Notes under the pieces: model-generated | Database searches by the model: none | What the model was told of the DNA's origin: nothing | The model's input: only the letters and a program-made list of their open reading frames with translations | Program-made: the position numbers and the translations under genes | Shown: piece after piece, positions 17,105 through 26,452 of the stretch | How the letters are laid out: each line of letters begins with the position of its first letter | How positions within the stretch are numbered: the stretch's first letter is position 1 | Source of the DNA: an uncultured Acidobacteriota bacterium | Lineage (GTDB): Bacteria > Acidobacteriota > Thermoanaerobaculia > Gp7-AA8 | NCBI GenBank assembly: GCA_937870635.1 | Contig: CALMZP010000149.1 | Span: 1-36,518 of the forward strand | Direction: 5' to 3' | DNA length: 36,518 nt

Positions 17105-17359
17105 ATGCATCTGACGAAAGAGCAAGTTACAGGGTTGGCGAGACGGCGGCACTGCCCGCGGTGCGATCTGAACAAGACGATCGGAAGCGCGCTCTGCAGT
17201 TCGTGCCGTGCCAAGCTCCCCGAGCACATGCGCAAGGCCCTCGAGCGGATCCCGCAGAAGGAGCCTTCCATCGTGGCGCGCGCCCTGCGAGGGGCGGCCG
17301 ATTACTTCAACCTCCACTTCCAGTCGGTCCGGAACTTCGGCGGCGGGAAGAAGCGGTAA
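17105..17359 (+). CDS. Small zinc-ribbon protein
   Basis: This protein has 84 residues from ATG 17105. Two Cys pairs, CPRC (near 17-20) and CSSC (near 32-35), spaced by 11 residues form a probable zinc ribbon. The rest is basic and helical (MRKALERIPQKEPSIVARAL, then LHFQSVRNFGGGKKR). I do not recognise the family. A role in binding nucleic acid or a protein is plausible but unproven. An upstream in-frame ATG does not exist; the frame extends to 17051 only by a non-ATG start and would cover the CRP-like site. Its 3' end overlaps the convergent gene by 53 bases. Confidence 0.7.
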   Translation: MHLTKEQVTGLARRRHCPRCDLNKTIGSALCSSCRAKLPEHMRKALERIPQKEPSIVARALRGAADYFNLHFQSVRNFGGGKKR

Positions 17360-18797
17360 CCGTCGCCAGCTCCTGCGCCAGCGGATCCGCCGGTGCCTCC
17401 TCGGCCAGCCGCGCCGCGGTGAGGATCAGCTCATCGACCACCTGTGCCGATGAAAGCGATTCACCCCACGCGGCACTGAGCGTGGCCAGCCGGTGCCGGC
17501 GCGACGCGGCCGCCCACGTCAGCTTCAATGCATCGGCGCGAATGTCGGTCGCGACGCGAACGGGGCGTTTCGTGACCGGCGAGATGTACTTCAAAATCAC
17601 AGTCGCCACACGCTGTCCCTCGGGCGTTCCCGGCTGAAGTTTCAACTCCACGAGTCCCGTCGCCGATTGCCCGGCGCGCAGAGAGCCGGTCGCCGCGTCG
17701 AGCGATCGCGGACCGGCGATCGTTCGATGCGTCGCGATCACACCTTCCTCCAGGACGATCGAAACTTCGGCTGACGCGAGCTTCGCCGGCGTGTCGATCG
17801 TGTACCGGATGACGGCGGTTCCATCGGCCTTCAGCGGCGCCTGTGAGGCTTCCACCTGCAGGCGCACGTCGTCGACGCCGGCCGGTGCGCCGGCGAAGTG
17901 ATTCACGACGGCCGCCACGTCGATCTGCTTTGGCGGATCGCCACGTTCGATGCTCTCCTTCAACTTTCCGACAACCGAAGGATCGGTCGAGATGCCGAAC
18001 GGGCGCGTGGAGATCGCACTCACGGGTCGCTGCAGGCGAGCCGCCGCGAGTGAGGTGGATGCGCGCGGTGCGTTCTGCGCGGTCGCGAGCTCAGTGTCAG
18101 CCTGGGTCTCGGTCACGAGAGTGGCACCAGGTTCGGCCAGGGACGCGGGTCGCGCTGGAGCAGCCGGGGCTTCCGCGGTCACGCTGATGGCCTCCGCGAC
18201 AACGGCGGTTTCCCTGTTTTCCACTACGCCGCCAATCTGTGCTGCGTCACGGGTGCTGGGTGCAGACCTTTGGGTGCTTGGTGCCGAGTGCCGGGTGGTG
18301 GGTGCTGGGGCCGTGGCCGCACCTGCTTCCGCTTTCTGCGCGACTTTGAGCTCGGGCTGTGCGAGAAGCGACCGTTCGGTCCGTTCCTCCTTTGTTTCCT
18401 GCCGCGCCGTGGCGGGCGGGATCGCCCGCGGCTCCATTCGATCCGGAACCAGCATCGTGGTCGTTTCTGCCGTCGGCACACTGGCCGGTGCGGGGGGTGG
18501 CGGGGGAACTTCGGCGACCGACTTCATCGCGCCGCGTTCGTGAGTGTCGACGCGCAGAACGTCGCCGTCGCGCGAGATCAGTTGCATGGTGAGGAAGACG
18601 GAAGTCACCAGAAGGATGATCGATGCCGCGACGCGCAGGGTGAATGCCCACGACAGGGAGACCCGGTCGCGATCGCGCCCGGTGCGGAGATACTCGGGGA
18701 TGTCGGCCTTGATGCGCTCGGCGAGACCTGAAGGCGGTTTGGCCACCGGAGCCATCGACAGCTTGCGCTGCAGCTCTGCTTTTCGTTTCTGTGTCAT
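17307..18797 (-). CDS. Membrane partner of ECF sigma factor with YfbK-like C-terminal region
   Basis: This protein has 496 residues and starts with a 4-base overlap on the ECF sigma gene, the standard arrangement for an anti-sigma factor or sensor. The N-terminal 50 residues are cytoplasmic (KPPSGLAERIKADIPEYL), a single membrane span lies at 52-74, and a long Ala/Pro/Thr-rich linker covers about 80-280. After it, a segment with KLKESIERGDPPKQIDVAAV and VNHFAG resembles the N-terminal region of YfbK-type VWA proteins, and the end (VILKYISPVTKRPVRVATDI) resembles their C-terminal DUF3520 region, but the VWA domain between them is absent. The linker carries two repeats: a palindrome (18411-18437) and a heptad array (18251-18310). 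It lacks the usual zinc-binding anti-sigma motif. Function as anti-sigma is inferred from context. Confidence 0.72.
   Translation of the reverse strand: MTQKRKAELQRKLSMAPVAKPPSGLAERIKADIPEYLRTGRDRDRVSLSWAFTLRVAASIILLVTSVFLTMQLISRDGDVLRVDTHERGAMKSVAEVPPPPPAPASVPTAETTTMLVPDRMEPRAIPPATARQETKEERTERSLLAQPELKVAQKAEAGAATAPAPTTRHSAPSTQRSAPSTRDAAQIGGVVENRETAVVAEAISVTAEAPAAPARPASLAEPGATLVTETQADTELATAQNAPRASTSLAAARLQRPVSAISTRPFGISTDPSVVGKLKESIERGDPPKQIDVAAVVNHFAGAPAGVDDVRLQVEASQAPLKADGTAVIRYTIDTPAKLASAEVSIVLEEGVIATHRTIAGPRSLDAATGSLRAGQSATGLVELKLQPGTPEGQRVATVILKYISPVTKRPVRVATDIRADALKLTWAAASRRHRLATLSAAWGESLSSAQVVDELILTAARLAEEAPADPLAQELATVTASSRRRSSGPTGSGG
18251..18310 (-). repeat. GGGTGCT heptanucleotide array inside a coding region
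   Basis: Eight successive 7-base units (GGGTGCT, GGGTGCA, GACCTTT, GGGTGCT, TGGTGCC, GAGTGCC, GGGTGGT, GGGTGCT) follow with strict period. It is translated on the minus strand as a TRHSAPSTQRSAPSTRDA-like segment of the linker. There is no inverted arm here, unlike the other heptad arrays. Confidence 0.85.
18411..18437 (-). repeat. GCGGGCGA palindrome inside the sigma-partner gene
   Basis: On the minus strand this is ATGGAGCCGCGGGCGATCCC then GCCCGCC, a variant of the family with one extra base in the stem. It is read as MEPRAIPPA in the disordered linker. Confidence 0.8.
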
Positions 18798-19408
18798 TTC
18801 GATTCCTCGTCGATCATCGCCTCGAGAATCGAGAAAGCCTTGTGCAGCCGCTTACGGATGGCGACTGTCGTGATGCTCTCGAGCTCGGCGATCTCCTTCA
18901 CCGGCAGTCCTCCCCAGAAATGCGCCGTCACTGTGAAACGCAGATCGTCGGGAAGCCGAAGAACCGCGGCGCGCAGCCGCTCCGATTCTTCGATGCTGGA
19001 CAGCACCTGATCCGCCGCGGGCACGTCGTCCGCGATGTTGGCCGCATAGGGCTCGTCCAGCGAGGTCGTCCGCCGCGGCCGGCGTACATGATTGAGAAAC
19101 GTCGTATAGGCGATGCGATACAGCCACGTGAAAAGTTGCGAGCGCCCGTCGAATCCGCGCAGCGCCGACCAGGCCTTCTGATACGTCTCCTGGGTCAGGT
19201 CCGCGGCGAGGTCCCCGTCCGAGCACAGCCGGAAGAGCGACGCGTACACGGCCGAATACGTCCGCTCGACCATGGCTTCAGCCGCTTCGCGGTCTCCCTG
19301 CCTCACCGCCTCGAGCAGGCTCTTTTCGTCAGCCCACCGCCCGGGCGGTTCGGCGTCCCGTTCGGGGGCTGGAAACCGCGCGAGACTTGCCATGTCGATT
19401 GGACACAT
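18794..19408 (-). CDS. ECF-type RNA polymerase sigma factor
   Basis: This sigma factor has 204 residues from ATG 19406-19408, or 199 from ATG 19391-19393. Region 2 (DLAADLTQETYQKAWSALRG then FDGRSQLFTWLYRIAYTTFL) recognises the -10 element; region 4 (LPDDLRFTVTAHFWGGLPVK, EIAELESITTVAIRKRLHKA) recognises the -35. It directs polymerase to a small regulon, typically envelope stress genes. Only about 25 bases separate its start from the divergent DUF1684 gene, so the promoters of both must overlap the opposing genes. The downstream membrane protein overlaps it by 4 bases and is its likely regulator. Confidence 0.92.
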   Translation of the reverse strand: MCPIDMASLARFPAPERDAEPPGRWADEKSLLEAVRQGDREAAEAMVERTYSAVYASLFRLCSDGDLAADLTQETYQKAWSALRGFDGRSQLFTWLYRIAYTTFLNHVRRPRRTTSLDEPYAANIADDVPAADQVLSSIEESERLRAAVLRLPDDLRFTVTAHFWGGLPVKEIAELESITTVAIRKRLHKAFSILEAMIDEESK

Positions 19409-19433
19409 GTCGGGGCCGTTTCGAAACCTGAGT

Positions 19434-20297
19434 ATGCTACGTCCCGTGAAACGCTGTCTCGCGACCGTTCTTTTCCTCGCCGCCGCGTGCCGGCCGGCCG
19501 AGACCACGTTCGACCCTGCCGCCCACGCGGAAGAGATCCGCAAGTGGCAGGAGAATCGCCAGAATCGCCTGAGCAAGGAAGACGGCTGGCTCACGCTCGT
19601 CGCTCTGGAGTGGCTCGAGCCGGGCAAAAACACGGTCGAGCCGTTCGGGACCCTGGTGCTCGAAGACGGAACCGTCACGCTCGAGCCCGCTCCCGAAGCG
19701 AAGCTGACCATCGACAAGAAGCCGGTCCTCGGCAAAGTCGAACTGCGCGACGACAACGATGACAGCGGCCCAACCATCGTCTACGCGGGGAAGCTCAATT
19801 TCCAGATCATCAAGCGCGGCGACCGATATGGGGTCCGCGTGAAGGATCCCGACGCGAAGACGCGTGTCGAGTTCAAGGGTCTCGAGTACTTTCCGATCGA
19901 TCCGAAATGGCGCGTCGTCGCCCAGTTCCAGCCGTATCAGCCGGCGAGGCAGATCCCGATCGTCGACATCACGGGGATGGTCTCGAAACAGGCCGTGCCC
20001 GGAGCACTCGTGTTCGAGGTCGATGGCGAGAGCTATCGCCTGGACGCCATCGCCGAGGAGGGTTCGCGGGAGTTGTTCGTGATCTTCAAGGATGCGACGA
20101 GCCGCGATGCGACCTATCCGGCGGGACGCTATCTATATGTGCCGCGCCCCGGCGTCGACGGAAAGATCGTGGTCGACTTCAACAAGGCCTACAGCCCACC
20201 CTGCGCATTCACCCCTTACGCAACCTGCCCGCTGCCGCCGCGCCAGAACCGCCTCCCGATCCGCATCGAGGCGGGGGAGAAGTACGAGAAGCATTAA
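19434..20297 (+). CDS. DUF1684-family lipoprotein
   Basis: This protein has 287 residues. The N-terminus MLRPVKRCLATVLFLAAAC carries a lipobox (LAAAC), so it is anchored in the envelope. The DUF1684 marks are EIRKWQENRQNRLSKEDGWL followed by TLVALEWLEPGKN, and the C-terminal DFNKAYSPPCAFTPYATCPL then PPRQNRLPIRIEAGEKYE. The family is of unknown function. GTG 19446 is an alternative start but would shorten the basic n-region. It is divergent from the ECF sigma gene and could be one of its targets. A TGGATTT hairpin follows 9 bases after the stop. Confidence 0.9.
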   Translation: MLRPVKRCLATVLFLAAACRPAETTFDPAAHAEEIRKWQENRQNRLSKEDGWLTLVALEWLEPGKNTVEPFGTLVLEDGTVTLEPAPEAKLTIDKKPVLGKVELRDDNDDSGPTIVYAGKLNFQIIKRGDRYGVRVKDPDAKTRVEFKGLEYFPIDPKWRVVAQFQPYQPARQIPIVDITGMVSKQAVPGALVFEVDGESYRLDAIAEEGSRELFVIFKDATSRDATYPAGRYLYVPRPGVDGKIVVDFNKAYSPPCAFTPYATCPLPPRQNRLPIRIEAGEKYEKH

Positions 20298-21870: not shown

Positions 21871-22473
21871 ATGCTCGAACAGCTTTCCGCATCCGATGTC
21901 GCGTCTCCGCCAGGAGATGCGATCCGGCCTGCCGTTCCGGCCGCCCTGCGGCCGACGCGGCCGGCGGGGCAGCGCGCTGCGGGCGCCGACGTGGAATCGC
22001 TGTACGTCCAGCACCGGACACTGCTTCTTTCGGTCGCCTGCCGGAAGTTCAGCGTGCCGGAGGCGGATGCTGAAGGCCTGCTCCAGGAAGTCTTCCTTTC
22101 GTTCCTCCAGACCGGCGCGCAGATCGACAACGTCCGGTCGTGGCTCGTGGCCGGCATCTGCAACGCGAGCCGCCACTATTGGCGCAGCCAGGGGCGCTCC
22201 GAATCGCTGCCCGAGGATTACCTCGAGCGTTCCGATCCCGGTTCGGATTCGCTTCCCGAAAAACGGGCAATGGAAATGACGATTCAGCAGGCGCTCGGAT
22301 ATCTGCAGCCGCGTTGCCGGGAAACGCTGCGCCTTCACTATTTCGACGGCCGGTCGGCTTCCGAAGTGGCCGCCGAGCTCGATACGACGACCCGCTACGC
22401 GGAAAAGCTCATTCACAACTGCCTCAAGAGGGTACGCGAGATCTACATGAACATTACGGCGGTGCAGCGGTGA
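21871..22473 (+). CDS. ECF-type RNA polymerase sigma factor (second)
   Basis: This sigma factor has 200 residues. It has a Pro/Ala-rich 40-residue N-terminal tail, then region 2 (VESLYVQHRTLLLSVACRKF, DAEGLLQEVFLSFLQTGAQI with NVRSWLVAGICNASRHYWR) and region 4 (LGYLQPRCRETLRLHYFDGR, SASEVAAELDTTTRYAEKLI with HNCLKRVREIY). The partner gene with a zinc-type anti-sigma motif begins immediately after (ATG 22476, or GTG 22470 overlapping the stop). It is thus a sigma/anti-sigma pair independent of the one at 18794. No Shine-Dalgarno is obvious. Confidence 0.9.
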   Translation: MLEQLSASDVASPPGDAIRPAVPAALRPTRPAGQRAAGADVESLYVQHRTLLLSVACRKFSVPEADAEGLLQEVFLSFLQTGAQIDNVRSWLVAGICNASRHYWRSQGRSESLPEDYLERSDPGSDSLPEKRAMEMTIQQALGYLQPRCRETLRLHYFDGRSASEVAAELDTTTRYAEKLIHNCLKRVREIYMNITAVQR

Positions 22474-22475
22474 CG

Positions 22476-23834
22476 ATGATCGTTGAGCGGCACTATGACG
22501 ACGAGACCCTGATCGGGCTCCTCGGATCGAGCCTCGATGCGGAAAGAGACCCGCATCTGGCGGTCTGCTCGAGCTGCTCGGAAACTCTCGCTTCGTATCG
22601 TGCCATCGCCGAAGTGCTCGGCCACGACGCGGCCTGGGATCTCCGCGACCTGCGACAGGAACCCGTGCCGGAGACGATCTCCGCCCTGCGAATGTTCTCA
22701 TCCGTCCTCGCCGCGGAGGAAGAGGAAGCCCGGAGCGCGGTTGCGGCATTGCTCGCGCGGCCGAAGACGGCCTGGGTGTCGGCAATCTCGCATTCGCTCG
22801 AGCTGCAGTCGGTGGCCGCGGTCAACGCATTCATCGCCGCCTCCGAGAAGGCGATCGACCGCGATCCGTCGGATGCACTGGCGGTCGCGGCGCTCGCGAC
22901 ACACGTCGCGCGACTCCTGAAGTGCGACGAGTATCCGGACAGTGTCGTTTCACGCGCCGTGGGAGCTGCCTGGCGGCAGTATGCCTACGCCGCCTTTTAC
23001 GTCGGTGAATATCCAGCTGCTTCCGAAGCGGTCGCGAAGTCGGCGGCTGCCTTTGCGGCCTGCGCCGTGTCCGACTACGACCTTGCCAGGCTCTCCATCA
23101 TCCGGGGCCTGATTCTCTCCCAGCAGGAGCAGCATGACGCGGCTCGCGAAGAAGTCCAGCACGCCGCCGCGGTGTTCGACGCGTTCGGGGATCGCAGCCG
23201 TGCGGCCTCCGCAAGGGTGGCGGAGGCCTACTCGCTCATCAGCGAGCATCGGTACCAGGAAGCGCTCCCCATTCTCAGGACGGTGGAGCGCGATTATGCC
23301 GAAGACCTCGACAACTACTCGCGCGCGAACGTGGCGAACAACCTGGCGGTCTGTCTCATGGAGCTCGGTTCCGTGATCGAGGCGTTCGATCAGTATTCGA
23401 TCGCCGCGGCGATTTACGATGAAATCGGCAACGCACCCGAAGCAGCCCGTGTCCGGCACAACATCGGCTGCCTGCTCGCGGCCCAGGGGCGGCTCGGTGA
23501 TGCGCAGGCGCGATTCAGATCGGTGCGGATGGAATACCGCCGCCTTGGAATGGCGGACGGCGCGGTCGCAGCCGCCCTCGATCTCGCCGAGCTCCTGCTC
23601 GCGGAGAACGCCCACGCCGAAGCCGCGGCATTGTGCGGCGCCGCGGTGGAGCAGTTTCAGAAAACCGGTCTGAGCGCGACGACAAAGGGGCTGACCGCCC
23701 TGTCATTTCTCAGGGAGGCGGCTGCCCAGCGTCGCGCCACGCCTGAGACCGCTCGCCGGGTCCGGCGGTACCTCGAACGACTGTCGCGGGAGCCCCAGCT
23801 CCTCTTTGCACCGCCGCCACTGCTGGCACCCTGA
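22476..23834 (+). CDS. ZAS zinc-finger / TPR protein, putative soluble anti-sigma factor
   Basis: This protein has 452 residues. Near the start is HLAVCSSC (H27-x3-C31-x2-C34), the zinc-binding signature of ZAS anti-sigma domains, preceded by the usual DDETLIGLLGSSLD helix. Residues about 125-440 are TPR-type helix pairs (SEKAIDRDPSDALAVAALAT, AFYVGEYPAASEAVAKSAAA, VANNLAVCLMELGSVIEAFD, HNIGCLLAAQGRLGDAQARF). There is no membrane span, so the sensor would be cytoplasmic or respond through the TPR scaffold. Next to an ECF sigma gene this is a strong candidate for its anti-sigma factor. The last residues are Pro-rich (FAPPPLLAP). An amphipathic exported peptide gene follows after 108 bases. Confidence 0.8.
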   Translation: MIVERHYDDETLIGLLGSSLDAERDPHLAVCSSCSETLASYRAIAEVLGHDAAWDLRDLRQEPVPETISALRMFSSVLAAEEEEARSAVAALLARPKTAWVSAISHSLELQSVAAVNAFIAASEKAIDRDPSDALAVAALATHVARLLKCDEYPDSVVSRAVGAAWRQYAYAAFYVGEYPAASEAVAKSAAAFAACAVSDYDLARLSIIRGLILSQQEQHDAAREEVQHAAAVFDAFGDRSRAASARVAEAYSLISEHRYQEALPILRTVERDYAEDLDNYSRANVANNLAVCLMELGSVIEAFDQYSIAAAIYDEIGNAPEAARVRHNIGCLLAAQGRLGDAQARFRSVRMEYRRLGMADGAVAAALDLAELLLAENAHAEAAALCGAAVEQFQKTGLSATTKGLTALSFLREAAAQRRATPETARRVRRYLERLSREPQLLFAPPPLLAP

Positions 23835-23902
23835 AAAAATTTTTTGAGGTGGGGGGGTAGGGATTTTCCCCTCCCCGTCACTCCCCTCATAGGGCGCGCC
23901 CT
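23834..23902 (+). promoter_or_regulatory. Terminator-like and palindromic region ahead of the small peptide gene
   Basis: AAAAAATTTTTT (23834-23845) overlaps the stop codon of the TPR gene, then a G-run and C-run (GGGGGGGTAGGG and CCCCTCCCC, about 23851-23875) can pair imperfectly. AGGGCGCGCCCT (23891-23902) is a perfect 12-base palindrome 41 bases before the peptide ATG. These could separate the peptide gene into its own transcript or regulate it. Confidence 0.45.
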
Positions 23903-23942
23903 CCAAGCCTGAAAAGAAGAATTCACCGCCAGGAGGGTGCAG

Positions 23943-24155
23943 ATGAATCGTCGTGTCCGTAGTGTTGTGGCAGCGCTGTTTGCGCTGAGCCTCGTCCTTG
24001 CAGCTCCCGCAGCGTTCGCAGCCCGCGAGCGCGACCGCGATGTCACGCCGGGGTTCATGCAACGTGTCGTCCGGATCGTCAAGCAGATCGTCAAGCCATT
24101 CACGTCCACGGTCCAGGAAGAAACCACGGCCCTGCCGGGCCCGCCGAAACCCTGA
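23943..24155 (+). CDS. Small exported peptide with amphipathic cationic helix
   Basis: This peptide has 70 residues. The start ATG 23943 has a strong Shine-Dalgarno, AGGAGG, 6 bases upstream. The first 26 residues (MNRRVRSVVAALFALSLVLA then APAAFA) are a signal peptide with an AFA cleavage site. The mature 44 residues start ARERDRDVTPG and contain FMQRVVRIVKQIVKPF, whose basic residues (R, R, K, K) and Val/Ile residues fall on opposite helix faces. The tail is acidic/Pro-rich (TVQEETTALPGPPKP). I do not recognise a family. It follows an ECF sigma/anti-sigma pair; a secreted signal, membrane-active peptide or sigma regulon output are all possible. Confidence 0.75.
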   Translation: MNRRVRSVVAALFALSLVLAAPAAFAARERDRDVTPGFMQRVVRIVKQIVKPFTSTVQEETTALPGPPKP

Positions 24156-24221: not shown

Positions 24222-25142
24222 ATGTCGCATATCCTCGCTGTCCGAAACGTCGTCAAGACGTTCGGTAGTGTCCGCGCCGTAGATGGCGTGTCGTTCAACG
24301 TCCGCGAAGGGACGATCACCGGCCTCCTCGGCCGCAACGGGGCCGGGAAGACGACCACCATCCGGATGATCACCGGCATCTTCATGCCGGACTCGGGCTC
24401 CATCGAGTGGCTCGGGGCCTCCACCGCTGCCGAATTCCGTGATCGCATCGGTTACCTGCCCGAAGAACGCGGACTCTACCGGCAGATGAAGATCGTCGAG
24501 CTCCTTCTCTTTCTCGCCGAGATCAAGGGAAAGCGGCCGGCCGACGTCCGTCCCGCGATCGACCGCTGGCTGGAGAGGTTCGAGCTGACCGACAAACGCA
24601 ACGCCAAGATCGAGGAGCTCTCGAAGGGCAATCAGCAAAAGGTGCAGCTGATCGGCACGCTGCTGCACGATCCCGATCTGATCATCCTCGACGAGCCGCA
24701 GTCCGGCCTGGACCCCGTCAACATGGTCCTCGTCCGCAACCTGCTGCGCGATCTCAAGAACGAGGGAAAGACGATCCTTCTCTCGACGCACATGATGGGC
24801 GAGGCCGAACGTATGGCCGACGACATCGTGCTCATCCATCGCGGCAGCGTCGTGCTGGAGGGGAACATCAACGAGGTCCGCGGGTCGTTCGGAAAGAACA
24901 CCCTGCACGTGGAATACGACGGCGACGGCGCCTTCCTGAGCGAGCTTCCCAACGTCAAACGCGCTTCGATCGTCAACAACGCCGCGGAGCTGAGTCTCCT
25001 CGACGGGTCGGATCCGCAGAAGATCCTGGAAGCGGCGATGGGCCGGCTGCGCATCCGGAAGTTCGAGCTGGCCATGCCGTCGCTCGAAGAGATCTTCATC
25101 GAGAAAGTCGGAACCGAGACGCTGACCGAGGTGGTGCGATGA
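24222..25142 (+). CDS. ABC transporter ATP-binding protein (NatA-like)
   Basis: This ATPase has 306 residues. Walker A GRNGAGKTT (37-45), signature LSKGNQQKV (133-141), Walker B LIILDEP (153-159) and the switch His in LLSTHMMGEAERM mark an active ABC ATPase. The C-terminal extension (FELAMPSLEEIFIEKVG) is typical of NatA-type exporters that work with an ABC-2 permease. It powers export of an unidentified substrate (sodium ions in the classic NatAB case). The stop overlaps the start of the permease gene by 4 bases. The transporter may serve the small exported peptide encoded just before it, but that is only positional. Confidence 0.93.
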   Translation: MSHILAVRNVVKTFGSVRAVDGVSFNVREGTITGLLGRNGAGKTTTIRMITGIFMPDSGSIEWLGASTAAEFRDRIGYLPEERGLYRQMKIVELLLFLAEIKGKRPADVRPAIDRWLERFELTDKRNAKIEELSKGNQQKVQLIGTLLHDPDLIILDEPQSGLDPVNMVLVRNLLRDLKNEGKTILLSTHMMGEAERMADDIVLIHRGSVVLEGNINEVRGSFGKNTLHVEYDGDGAFLSELPNVKRASIVNNAAELSLLDGSDPQKILEAAMGRLRIRKFELAMPSLEEIFIEKVGTETLTEVVR

Positions 25143-26452
25143 AGAAACTGCTGGCAGTCCTGAAGCGCGAATACCTCCAGACCGTCCGGAAGAAGATGTT
25201 CATCGTGATGACGTTCCTCATGCCGGTGCTCATGGGCGCCGTACTGGTCCTGCCGAGCCTGATCATGGCCCGCGGCATGGGGGAGAAGAAGATCGCTGTC
25301 GTAGACGGCACAGGGAAACTGCGCGAGGCCTTCACGAAGGCTCCCGTGGCAACGGAAGGAAAGCCGGAGCCGTCGACGCGTCCCGGCCGGAGGCGCCTGC
25401 CGGAGAACATGCGCGTCGAGTATGTTGACGCGGCAGGAAAGGACGCGGACGAAGCCGCCAAACCCTTCCTCACACGGATGAGCGGCGCGAAAGAAACACG
25501 TATCGATGGCGTGTTCGTCGTTCCCGCCGACGCGATCACCAATACCGACGCGACTCTGAGGTACTACAGCCGTGCCGCCGCGGACTTCATGTCACAGGAA
25601 CGGCTTTCCTCCATCGCCAACGGCGCGGTGCAGCGCGACCGCCTGGCCGCGCGCGGTCTTTCGTCCGACGACGTCGACAAGGTTCTGCGCACGCTGTCCG
25701 TCGATGCGGTACAGCTGTCGAAGAGCGGTGAAGAGAAGAAAGGCGGCATCGCCAACTTCTTCGTCGGTTTCATGATGACCGGCCTGCTCATCGTCCCTTC
25801 GTTCATGTACGGCCTGGAGATCATGCGCGGCATCATCCAGGAAAAGACCGACCGGGTGGTCGAAGTCCTGGTGTCCTCGATGAGCACCCAGCAGCTCCTC
25901 ATCGGCAAGATCCTCGGGGTCGCGCTGGTCGGACTCACGCAGATCGGTGTGTGGTTCATCATGTTCGGCGCCGTGGGCGCCTTTGGCCTCGCCACCGCGG
26001 CGATGGCGGGGGAGAACGTGCTGCAGCTCCTGCGCCCGTCCACCTTCGTCTACTTCTTCATCTTCTTCGTGCTCGCGTACCTGACATACGTCTGCATCTA
26101 CGCGATCGGCGGTGCCGTGAGCAACTCGGAAAAAGAGGCGCAGCAGCTCATCGCGCCGATCACGATGATCATGATGCTGCCATGGTTCCTGCTCGTGGCC
26201 ATCATCACGAATCCCGATTCGACGCTCTCGGTCGCGTTCTCGCTCTCGCCGGTGTTCGGCCCGATGACGATGTACGTGCGCATCCTCGTCGCCGAACCTC
26301 CGATGTGGCACATCGTCCTGACGATCCTGATCTCGATCGCAACGATCGCCGTGTTTTTCTGGGCGACGGCGAAAATCTTCCGGGTGGGAATCCTCTCGTA
26401 CGGCAAACGTCCCACGATTCCGGAGCTGTGGCGGTGGATCAAGGTGGCTTAG
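25139..26452 (+). CDS. ABC-2 type transporter permease (NatB-like)
   Basis: This permease has 437 residues. An N-terminal membrane span (FIVMTFLMPVLMGAVLVLPS) is followed by a large extracytoplasmic domain of about 170 residues (35-205). Five or six spans follow (GGIANFFVGFMMTGLLIVPS, ILGVALVGLTQIGVWFIMFG, FVYFFIFFVLAYLTYVCIYA, ITMIMMLPWFLLVAIIT, MWHIVLTILISIATIAVFFW). This is the standard NatB/YhaP topology. It forms an exporter with the preceding ATPase. It ends at 26452, directly before a long inverted repeat. Confidence 0.92.
   Translation: MKKLLAVLKREYLQTVRKKMFIVMTFLMPVLMGAVLVLPSLIMARGMGEKKIAVVDGTGKLREAFTKAPVATEGKPEPSTRPGRRRLPENMRVEYVDAAGKDADEAAKPFLTRMSGAKETRIDGVFVVPADAITNTDATLRYYSRAAADFMSQERLSSIANGAVQRDRLAARGLSSDDVDKVLRTLSVDAVQLSKSGEEKKGGIANFFVGFMMTGLLIVPSFMYGLEIMRGIIQEKTDRVVEVLVSSMSTQQLLIGKILGVALVGLTQIGVWFIMFGAVGAFGLATAAMAGENVLQLLRPSTFVYFFIFFVLAYLTYVCIYAIGGAVSNSEKEAQQLIAPITMIMMLPWFLLVAIITNPDSTLSVAFSLSPVFGPMTMYVRILVAEPPMWHIVLTILISIATIAVFFWATAKIFRVGILSYGKRPTIPELWRWIKVA

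Follow-up and report, generated by a model that had tools for sequence, protein, structure and literature searches.

A recurrent cassette of an ECF sigma factor, a zf-HC2-like/TPR putative anti-sigma factor and a predicted exported peptide in a family of Thermoanaerobaculia

One family of Thermoanaerobaculia (Acidobacteriota) repeatedly carries a cassette that combines an ECF sigma factor, a predicted soluble anti-sigma factor built on a long TPR superhelix, and a short peptide with a predicted Sec-type signal. We describe it from the copy in the window, by which we mean the whole stretch of 36,518 nucleotides that was analysed. As an explanation of the whole, we favor a peptide-controlled ECF sigma circuit that resembles RRNPP systems, a reading that we hold with about even confidence.

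The three open reading frames that the initial annotation had grouped into a cassette are all present, on the forward strand. The first (21871..22473) encodes an ECF sigma factor of 200 aa, which matches Pfam Sigma70_r2 and Sigma70_r4_2 above the gathering scores and TIGR02937 above its cutoff. The second (22470..23834) encodes a protein with a zf-HC2-like N-terminus and a TPR superhelix, a predicted soluble anti-sigma factor of 454 aa if translation begins at the GTG at 22470, which overlaps the sigma stop codon; the alternative start is the ATG at 22476. A gap of 108 nt separates it from the third, which encodes a peptide precursor of 70 aa (23943..24155), homologs of which adjoin TPR genes in other genera. 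The window also encodes a second ECF sigma factor (18794-19777, reverse strand), which several relatives keep in synteny with the cassette, and the long ORF downstream of it (17307-18797, reverse strand) has no Pfam match and looks like a membrane anti-sigma factor.

In order to determine how far this arrangement is conserved, we read 58 TPR genes from 19 genomes, covering the family and its sister family (G018). The sigma gene lies immediately 5' of the TPR gene in 43 of the 58 cases (19 genomes), and the 15 TPR genes that have no adjacent sigma gene include two at a contig end. Sigma orthologs with 59-82% identity are encoded directly upstream of the TPR orthologs. When the sequence downstream of each gene was scanned on the same strand, 31 of 49 TPR genes proved to be followed by a peptide-like ORF, compared with 3 of 163 other long genes (Fisher p 3e-21); in other cassettes the peptide gene is convergent to the TPR gene, and some of the 58 TPR genes have no recognisable peptide gene. 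An HMM trained on 18 copies of the peptide gave 35 matches in the family, at E values up to 4e-5, and all but one of these (34/35) adjoin a TPR gene. The same holds for 16 of the 17 matches outside the building set, and the sole orphan is in G006:C57 (L246). The three-gene order that had been suggested for comparison with other genomes is thus conserved across genera and paralogs with diverse peptides, and, as the HMM matches show, the peptide gene is not generally found alone or beside unrelated genes.

TPR homologs are encoded in 15 of the 18 family genomes, with a maximum of 12 per genome, and, across the class, 63 of 149 genomes encode more distant homologs. Within the class the peptide family is confined to the family of the window (15 genomes), and the TPR homologs examined outside that family are mostly without a peptide. 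Several cassettes carry tandem copies of the peptide gene, with four in G014:C83. Individual loci show further arrangements. L050 holds two convergent sigma/TPR cassettes with apparently one common peptide gene between them; L054, L056 and L057 are TPR-peptide pairs without an adjacent sigma gene, promoter or leader, and L057 has four tandem peptide genes. In L108 a tandem repeat encoding SPGGLTV units lies directly downstream of the TPR gene (approximately 29-401).

The TPR protein carries an H-x3-C-x2-C motif near its N-terminus, located by family alignment (HLAVCSSC, with H29, C33 and C36; 22554..22577, forward strand), followed by about eight TPRs that continue to the end, for which Pfam reports TPR_12 (E 5e-11). 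The motif does not vary among 13 relatives, and 41 of the 58 TPR paralogs carry it; the remaining 17 lack its exact form. Two TPR paralogs pass the Pfam zf-HC2 cutoff; the window protein has no Pfam zinc-finger match, with zf-HC2 below cutoff, and no HTH was found in it with Pfam or NCBIfam. Its AF2 model is all-helical and soluble (pLDDT 85.5) and no membrane helix is predicted, in agreement with the earlier description of a zinc-type motif on a long TPR scaffold that lacks a membrane span. The AF2 model of the isolated ZAS part (the N-terminal 98 residues) gave no confident PDB match and no anti-sigma factor among the Foldseek and VIA matches listed. The best bacterial structural neighbors of the TPR model are RapJ (with CSF), RapF, phage Raps and NprR (Z 18-22), and profile matches of the TPR domain to PDB entries include Rap and NprR (6e-11 to 9e-5), together with kinesin light chain and designed TPRs. 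The structural neighbors of the domain found by Foldseek and VIA are mixed, and since the closest match overall is the eukaryotic LGN (Z 26), the likeness to peptide receptors is generic. Gene overlap and repeated co-occurrence moderately support the view that the ZAS/TPR protein is the anti-sigma factor of this sigma factor.

The peptide precursor begins with a hydrophobic Sec-type N-terminus (predicted signal peptide MNRRVRSVVAALFALSLVLAAPAAFA; 23943..24020), and its hydropathy and composition fit a Sec signal. The mature part contains the segment RVVRIVKQIVK (24063..24095), with a hydrophobic moment of 0.97 that was reached by none of 100 shuffles, in agreement with the cationic amphipathic helix proposed earlier. 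In two thirds of the mature peptides an amphipathic segment exceeds shuffles, and these segments are mostly cationic. The peptide sequences are widely divergent except at their Pro-rich ends (PKP, PRP, PHP, PLP, PPG and PIP), which in the window peptide is PGPPKP (24135..24152), a candidate signal end. Pro occupies position -3 from the C-terminus in 36 of 42 non-redundant peptides, with 2.17 bits of information at this position compared with a shuffle maximum of 0.77, and at least two Pro residues are found within the last five residues in 35 of the 42, against 4 of 62 control ORFs. Conservation is stronger at the Pro-rich C-terminus than in the antimicrobial-like helix, and several family members, L060, L062 and L089 among them, have kept the Pro-rich end with the cationic helix absent. 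On the TPR tree, cassettes whose peptides share a C-terminal class group together (P-x-P class: 0 of 500 shuffles), a pattern that linkage alone could produce. Internal Pro-rich repeats (DPPGVRIAPPTGV and DPPGVRITPPTGV) occur in the L062 precursor, and L101 has an ORF with two Pro-rich cores. Both of these ORFs lie downstream of the TPR gene (256-577 downstream in L062 and 283-502 in L101) and resemble multi-core precursors, one of them without an evident signal sequence.

Comparison of intergenic regions recovered an ECF-type promoter, GTAGGGA-N13-GTCACTCC, which precedes the peptide gene in the window clade and the sigma gene in many PPG-type cassettes. The expectation of a shared promoter before both the sigma and the peptide gene is only partly borne out in the window, where the single site found within three mismatches (23857..23884, forward strand) is 5' of the peptide gene and none precedes the sigma gene. 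The genome to which the window belongs has five perfect sites and three with one mismatch, and the control has none. When one mismatch is allowed, the 18 family genomes contain 201 sites, compared with 5 for the reversed pattern, and the sites are at background level in the other 131 genomes of the class. The number of sites correlates with the number of cassettes (Spearman 0.89, falling to about 0.69 when genome size is partialled out). Promoter variants specific to a cassette clade keep the 13-nt spacer, for example GTAGCAA-N13-GTCACGCT in L099, L100 and L103 (with GTCACCCC in L094) and a CACTAC -10 variant in L106, L107 and L252; no such promoter was found in the clade without an adjacent sigma gene (L054, L056, L057). 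Strong circumstantial evidence of this kind indicates that the window sigma factor probably reads GTAGGGA-N13-GTCACTCC, and likewise that the sigma factor of each cassette would read its own variant.

In the putative regulon, the first ORF often begins at most 60 nt after the promoter site (62 sites). Pfam families found in a sample of these genes are lipases (patatin, a Tle1-like phospholipase and a GDSL lipase), peptidases (trypsin-like, astacin-like and M4), a RES domain, a cyclase with an NB-ARC domain, a metallo-beta-lactamase, and GAF, radical SAM and integrase domains, and many genes have no family; no enrichment is claimed, because the Pfam run covered 30 regulon genes with no background set. 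PADLOC returned weak matches for two regulon proteins and no match for the sigma factor, the TPR protein or the peptide. Two small protein families recur behind the promoter. One (NLSALVANFARVHMLLSMFDGDP...), with no Pfam match, is encoded directly 3' of the promoter in L283 (159-416) and also in L263, L267, L290 and L304, and it is found beside the TPR gene in L249 and L250; G003 has related small ORFs between the TPR gene and the peptide gene, and G004 has them 3' of the TPR gene. The other (L..LSRELNPEMPVAFG.PHVVRT.LE) occurs in L144, L256, L287, L295 and L297, the last of which has no Pfam match.

Between the promoter and the ATG of the peptide gene lies a structured 5' leader (23885..23942, forward strand; fold z = -2.75), in which CCCTCC (23899..23904) is able to pair with the Shine-Dalgarno sequence GGAGGG (23932..23937), sequestering it in the predicted single-sequence fold. 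A covariance model, built partly from the window leader (which it matches with E 7e-6), gave 35 leader matches in cassette loci, of which about 22 are from its own building set. The outer stem is nearly invariant, and for this reason its covariation is not significant; the case for it rests instead on pairing at the Shine-Dalgarno sequence, where 27 of 41 leaders form at least six of seven Watson-Crick pairs, compared with 6 of the 42 start sites used as controls. Of 34 leaders, 21 have an inner hairpin, of varying sequence, that outperforms shuffles; the window leader and its nearest orthologs do not. RNAalifold recovered no structure from the MAFFT-aligned leaders, probably because the inner hairpins vary in length, and Rfam gave no matches in the window at the gathering score. 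The leader would act in translation control of the peptide.

Downstream of the core cassette the window encodes a NatA-type ABC ATPase (24222..25142, forward strand; ABC_tran) and a NatB-type ABC-2 permease (25139..26452, forward strand; ABC2_membrane_3). Orthologs of the window locus show a syntenic block composed of an M20 peptidase, the cassette, NatA, NatB and FadD, and NatAB is absent beside the paralogous cassettes examined. The suggestion that this transporter is a dedicated exporter of the peptide is not supported, because a signal of Sec type is predicted for the peptide and the transporter genes are limited to the orthologous loci; NatAB may be a neighbor or a late addition.

Parts of this arrangement are known separately. 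RRNPP pairs (Rap-Phr, NprR-NprX, PlcR-PapR) have been described from Gram-positive Firmicutes, their phages and plasmids, and are recognised by a TPR receptor of 250-500 aa and a propeptide of 10-100 aa at -60 to 400 bp (PMC10075063). The cassette lies within these size rules (454 aa, 70 aa and 108 bp) and shares with RRNPP pairs intragenic or tandem precursor repeats and a TPR domain whose best bacterial structural neighbors are Rap and NprR; its precursor would likewise be exported by Sec. It differs in that its output is a zf-HC2-like domain beside an ECF sigma factor, not an HTH, phosphatase or Rap-type output, and in that peptide binding is putative. It resembles the soluble ZAS proteins ChrR, RsrA and RshA in that a zinc-type domain stands at the N-terminus, no membrane span is predicted and the gene overlaps the ECF gene; its sensor, however, is a long TPR superhelix, whereas theirs is a cupin or none, and the available part of PMC8999054 describes no exported peptide gene for them. 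The same source lists ECF270 and ECF271 as putative ZAS-controlled ECFs of unknown mechanism, with one Acidobacteria example (ECF270). Compared by description, these are similar in that the ECF sigma gene adjoins that of a soluble ZAS protein, but neither a TPR fusion nor an exported peptide is mentioned there (PMC8999054, in the part available). In the literature searched, which included few subscription papers, we found no description of a cassette of ECF sigma factor, TPR anti-sigma factor and exported peptide, and the combination of ZAS-controlled ECFs with RRNPP pairs looks undescribed.

In the circuit that we favor, the ECF sigma factor would be held by the cytoplasmic zf-HC2/TPR anti-sigma factor encoded just 3' of its gene. 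Once released, it would transcribe the peptide gene from GTAGGGA-N13-GTCACTCC, along with scattered regulon genes; in other cassettes it would also transcribe the gene that encodes it. After export by Sec and processing of the precursor, the Pro-rich C-terminus (about PGPPKP in the window peptide) would re-enter the cytoplasm and bind in the groove of the TPR domain. Sigma release would change as a result, with positive feedback as the most likely effect; masking of the Shine-Dalgarno sequence by the leader would provide a second, post-transcriptional gate. The logic would be that of an RRNPP receptor in which an anti-sigma domain replaces the DNA-binding or phosphatase output. We favor this circuit because Rap and NprR are the best bacterial structural neighbors and because the genes agree with the RRNPP detection rules in all but the output domain. 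The conserved order, the peptide HMM matches, the promoter counts and clade variants, the peptide C-termini and zf-HC2 in paralogs also speak for it, and of its elements the gene order, peptide family, promoter, leader and domain architecture are computational findings. The role of the peptide as TPR ligand, on which the conservation of the C-terminus bears indirectly, is weakly suggested, and so is the direction in which it would act. Import, processing, binding and sign are the weak links: no importer or protease was identified, and a returning peptide would also have to cross the outer membrane. The TPR genes that have no adjacent sigma gene, exact zinc motif or recognisable peptide count against the circuit as well, as do the generic TPR likeness and the result that the ZAS model matched no solved anti-sigma domain.

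A possible but rather doubtful alternative is that the peptide is an output, that is, an exported membrane-active or envelope peptide switched on by the sigma factor, and that the TPR/ZAS protein senses another cytoplasmic cue. The frequency of mostly cationic amphipathic segments beyond shuffles (two thirds of mature peptides) is consistent with this, tandem duplication suits an effector, and the promoter places the peptide in a sigma regulon with exported hydrolases and other effectors. However, it is the last few residues and not the helix that are most conserved, and several peptides, such as those of L060, L062 and L089, dispense with the cationic helix while keeping the Pro-rich end. The internal Pro-rich repeats in the L062 and L101 precursors also argue against an effector, as does the fact that the peptide nearly always adjoins the TPR gene instead of lying elsewhere in the regulon. 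Alternatively, the system could monitor export: unexported precursor would bind the cytoplasmic TPR protein and, upon failure of Sec or of membrane energy, would build up and cause sigma release. The architecture would suit this, with the precursor in the same compartment as a TPR protein that has no predicted membrane helix, its C-terminus exposed and no importer necessary. Co-translational export, however, would leave little free precursor, and the regulon, as far as Pfam on 30 genes without a background set describes it, resembles exported enzymes and conflict-type effectors and not Sec or proteostasis genes, so that we consider an export monitor unlikely.

It is very improbable that the zinc motif serves as a sensor of thiol oxidants, like that of RsrA or RshA, with the TPRs as scaffold and the peptide as an unrelated passenger. 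The invariance of H-x3-C-x2-C in the window clade speaks for such a role, as does the frequency of oxidant sensing among ZAS proteins (PMC8999054), but the motif has been lost in L050, L095, L102, L104, L106 and L107, where sigma factor and peptide are kept, and the clade-matched promoter of the peptide gene argues against a passenger. That the three genes are unrelated and neighbors by chance, for which only their proximity speaks, is refuted for practical purposes by the conservation of their order across genera and paralogs, with controls; the excess of peptide ORFs behind TPR genes over other long genes, reported above, rules it out.

Should the peptide prove to be the ligand of the TPR domain, the peptide-controlled ECF circuit would extend RRNPP-style signaling to a Gram-negative phylum, give it an ECF sigma output and join two large regulatory fields. 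We tentatively propose, at somewhat less than even confidence, a so far undescribed class of intracellular peptide signaling in diderms in which RRNPP-like TPR receptors serve as ECF anti-sigma factors, in about a dozen cassettes per genome at most, with clade-specific promoters and C-termini that may form separate channels, and with a leader gate. The repeated cassettes, in which promoter variants and peptide ends match, would then represent a natural multiplexed signaling set, in hosts that are largely uncultured soil bacteria, and the sampled regulon, with lipases, proteases, a RES-domain protein and STAND-type ATPases among its members, would link the circuit to competition or defence. Even a weaker reading still adds a new family of peptides, together with a dedicated promoter and a leader RNA, from which the ECF regulon is directly predictable.
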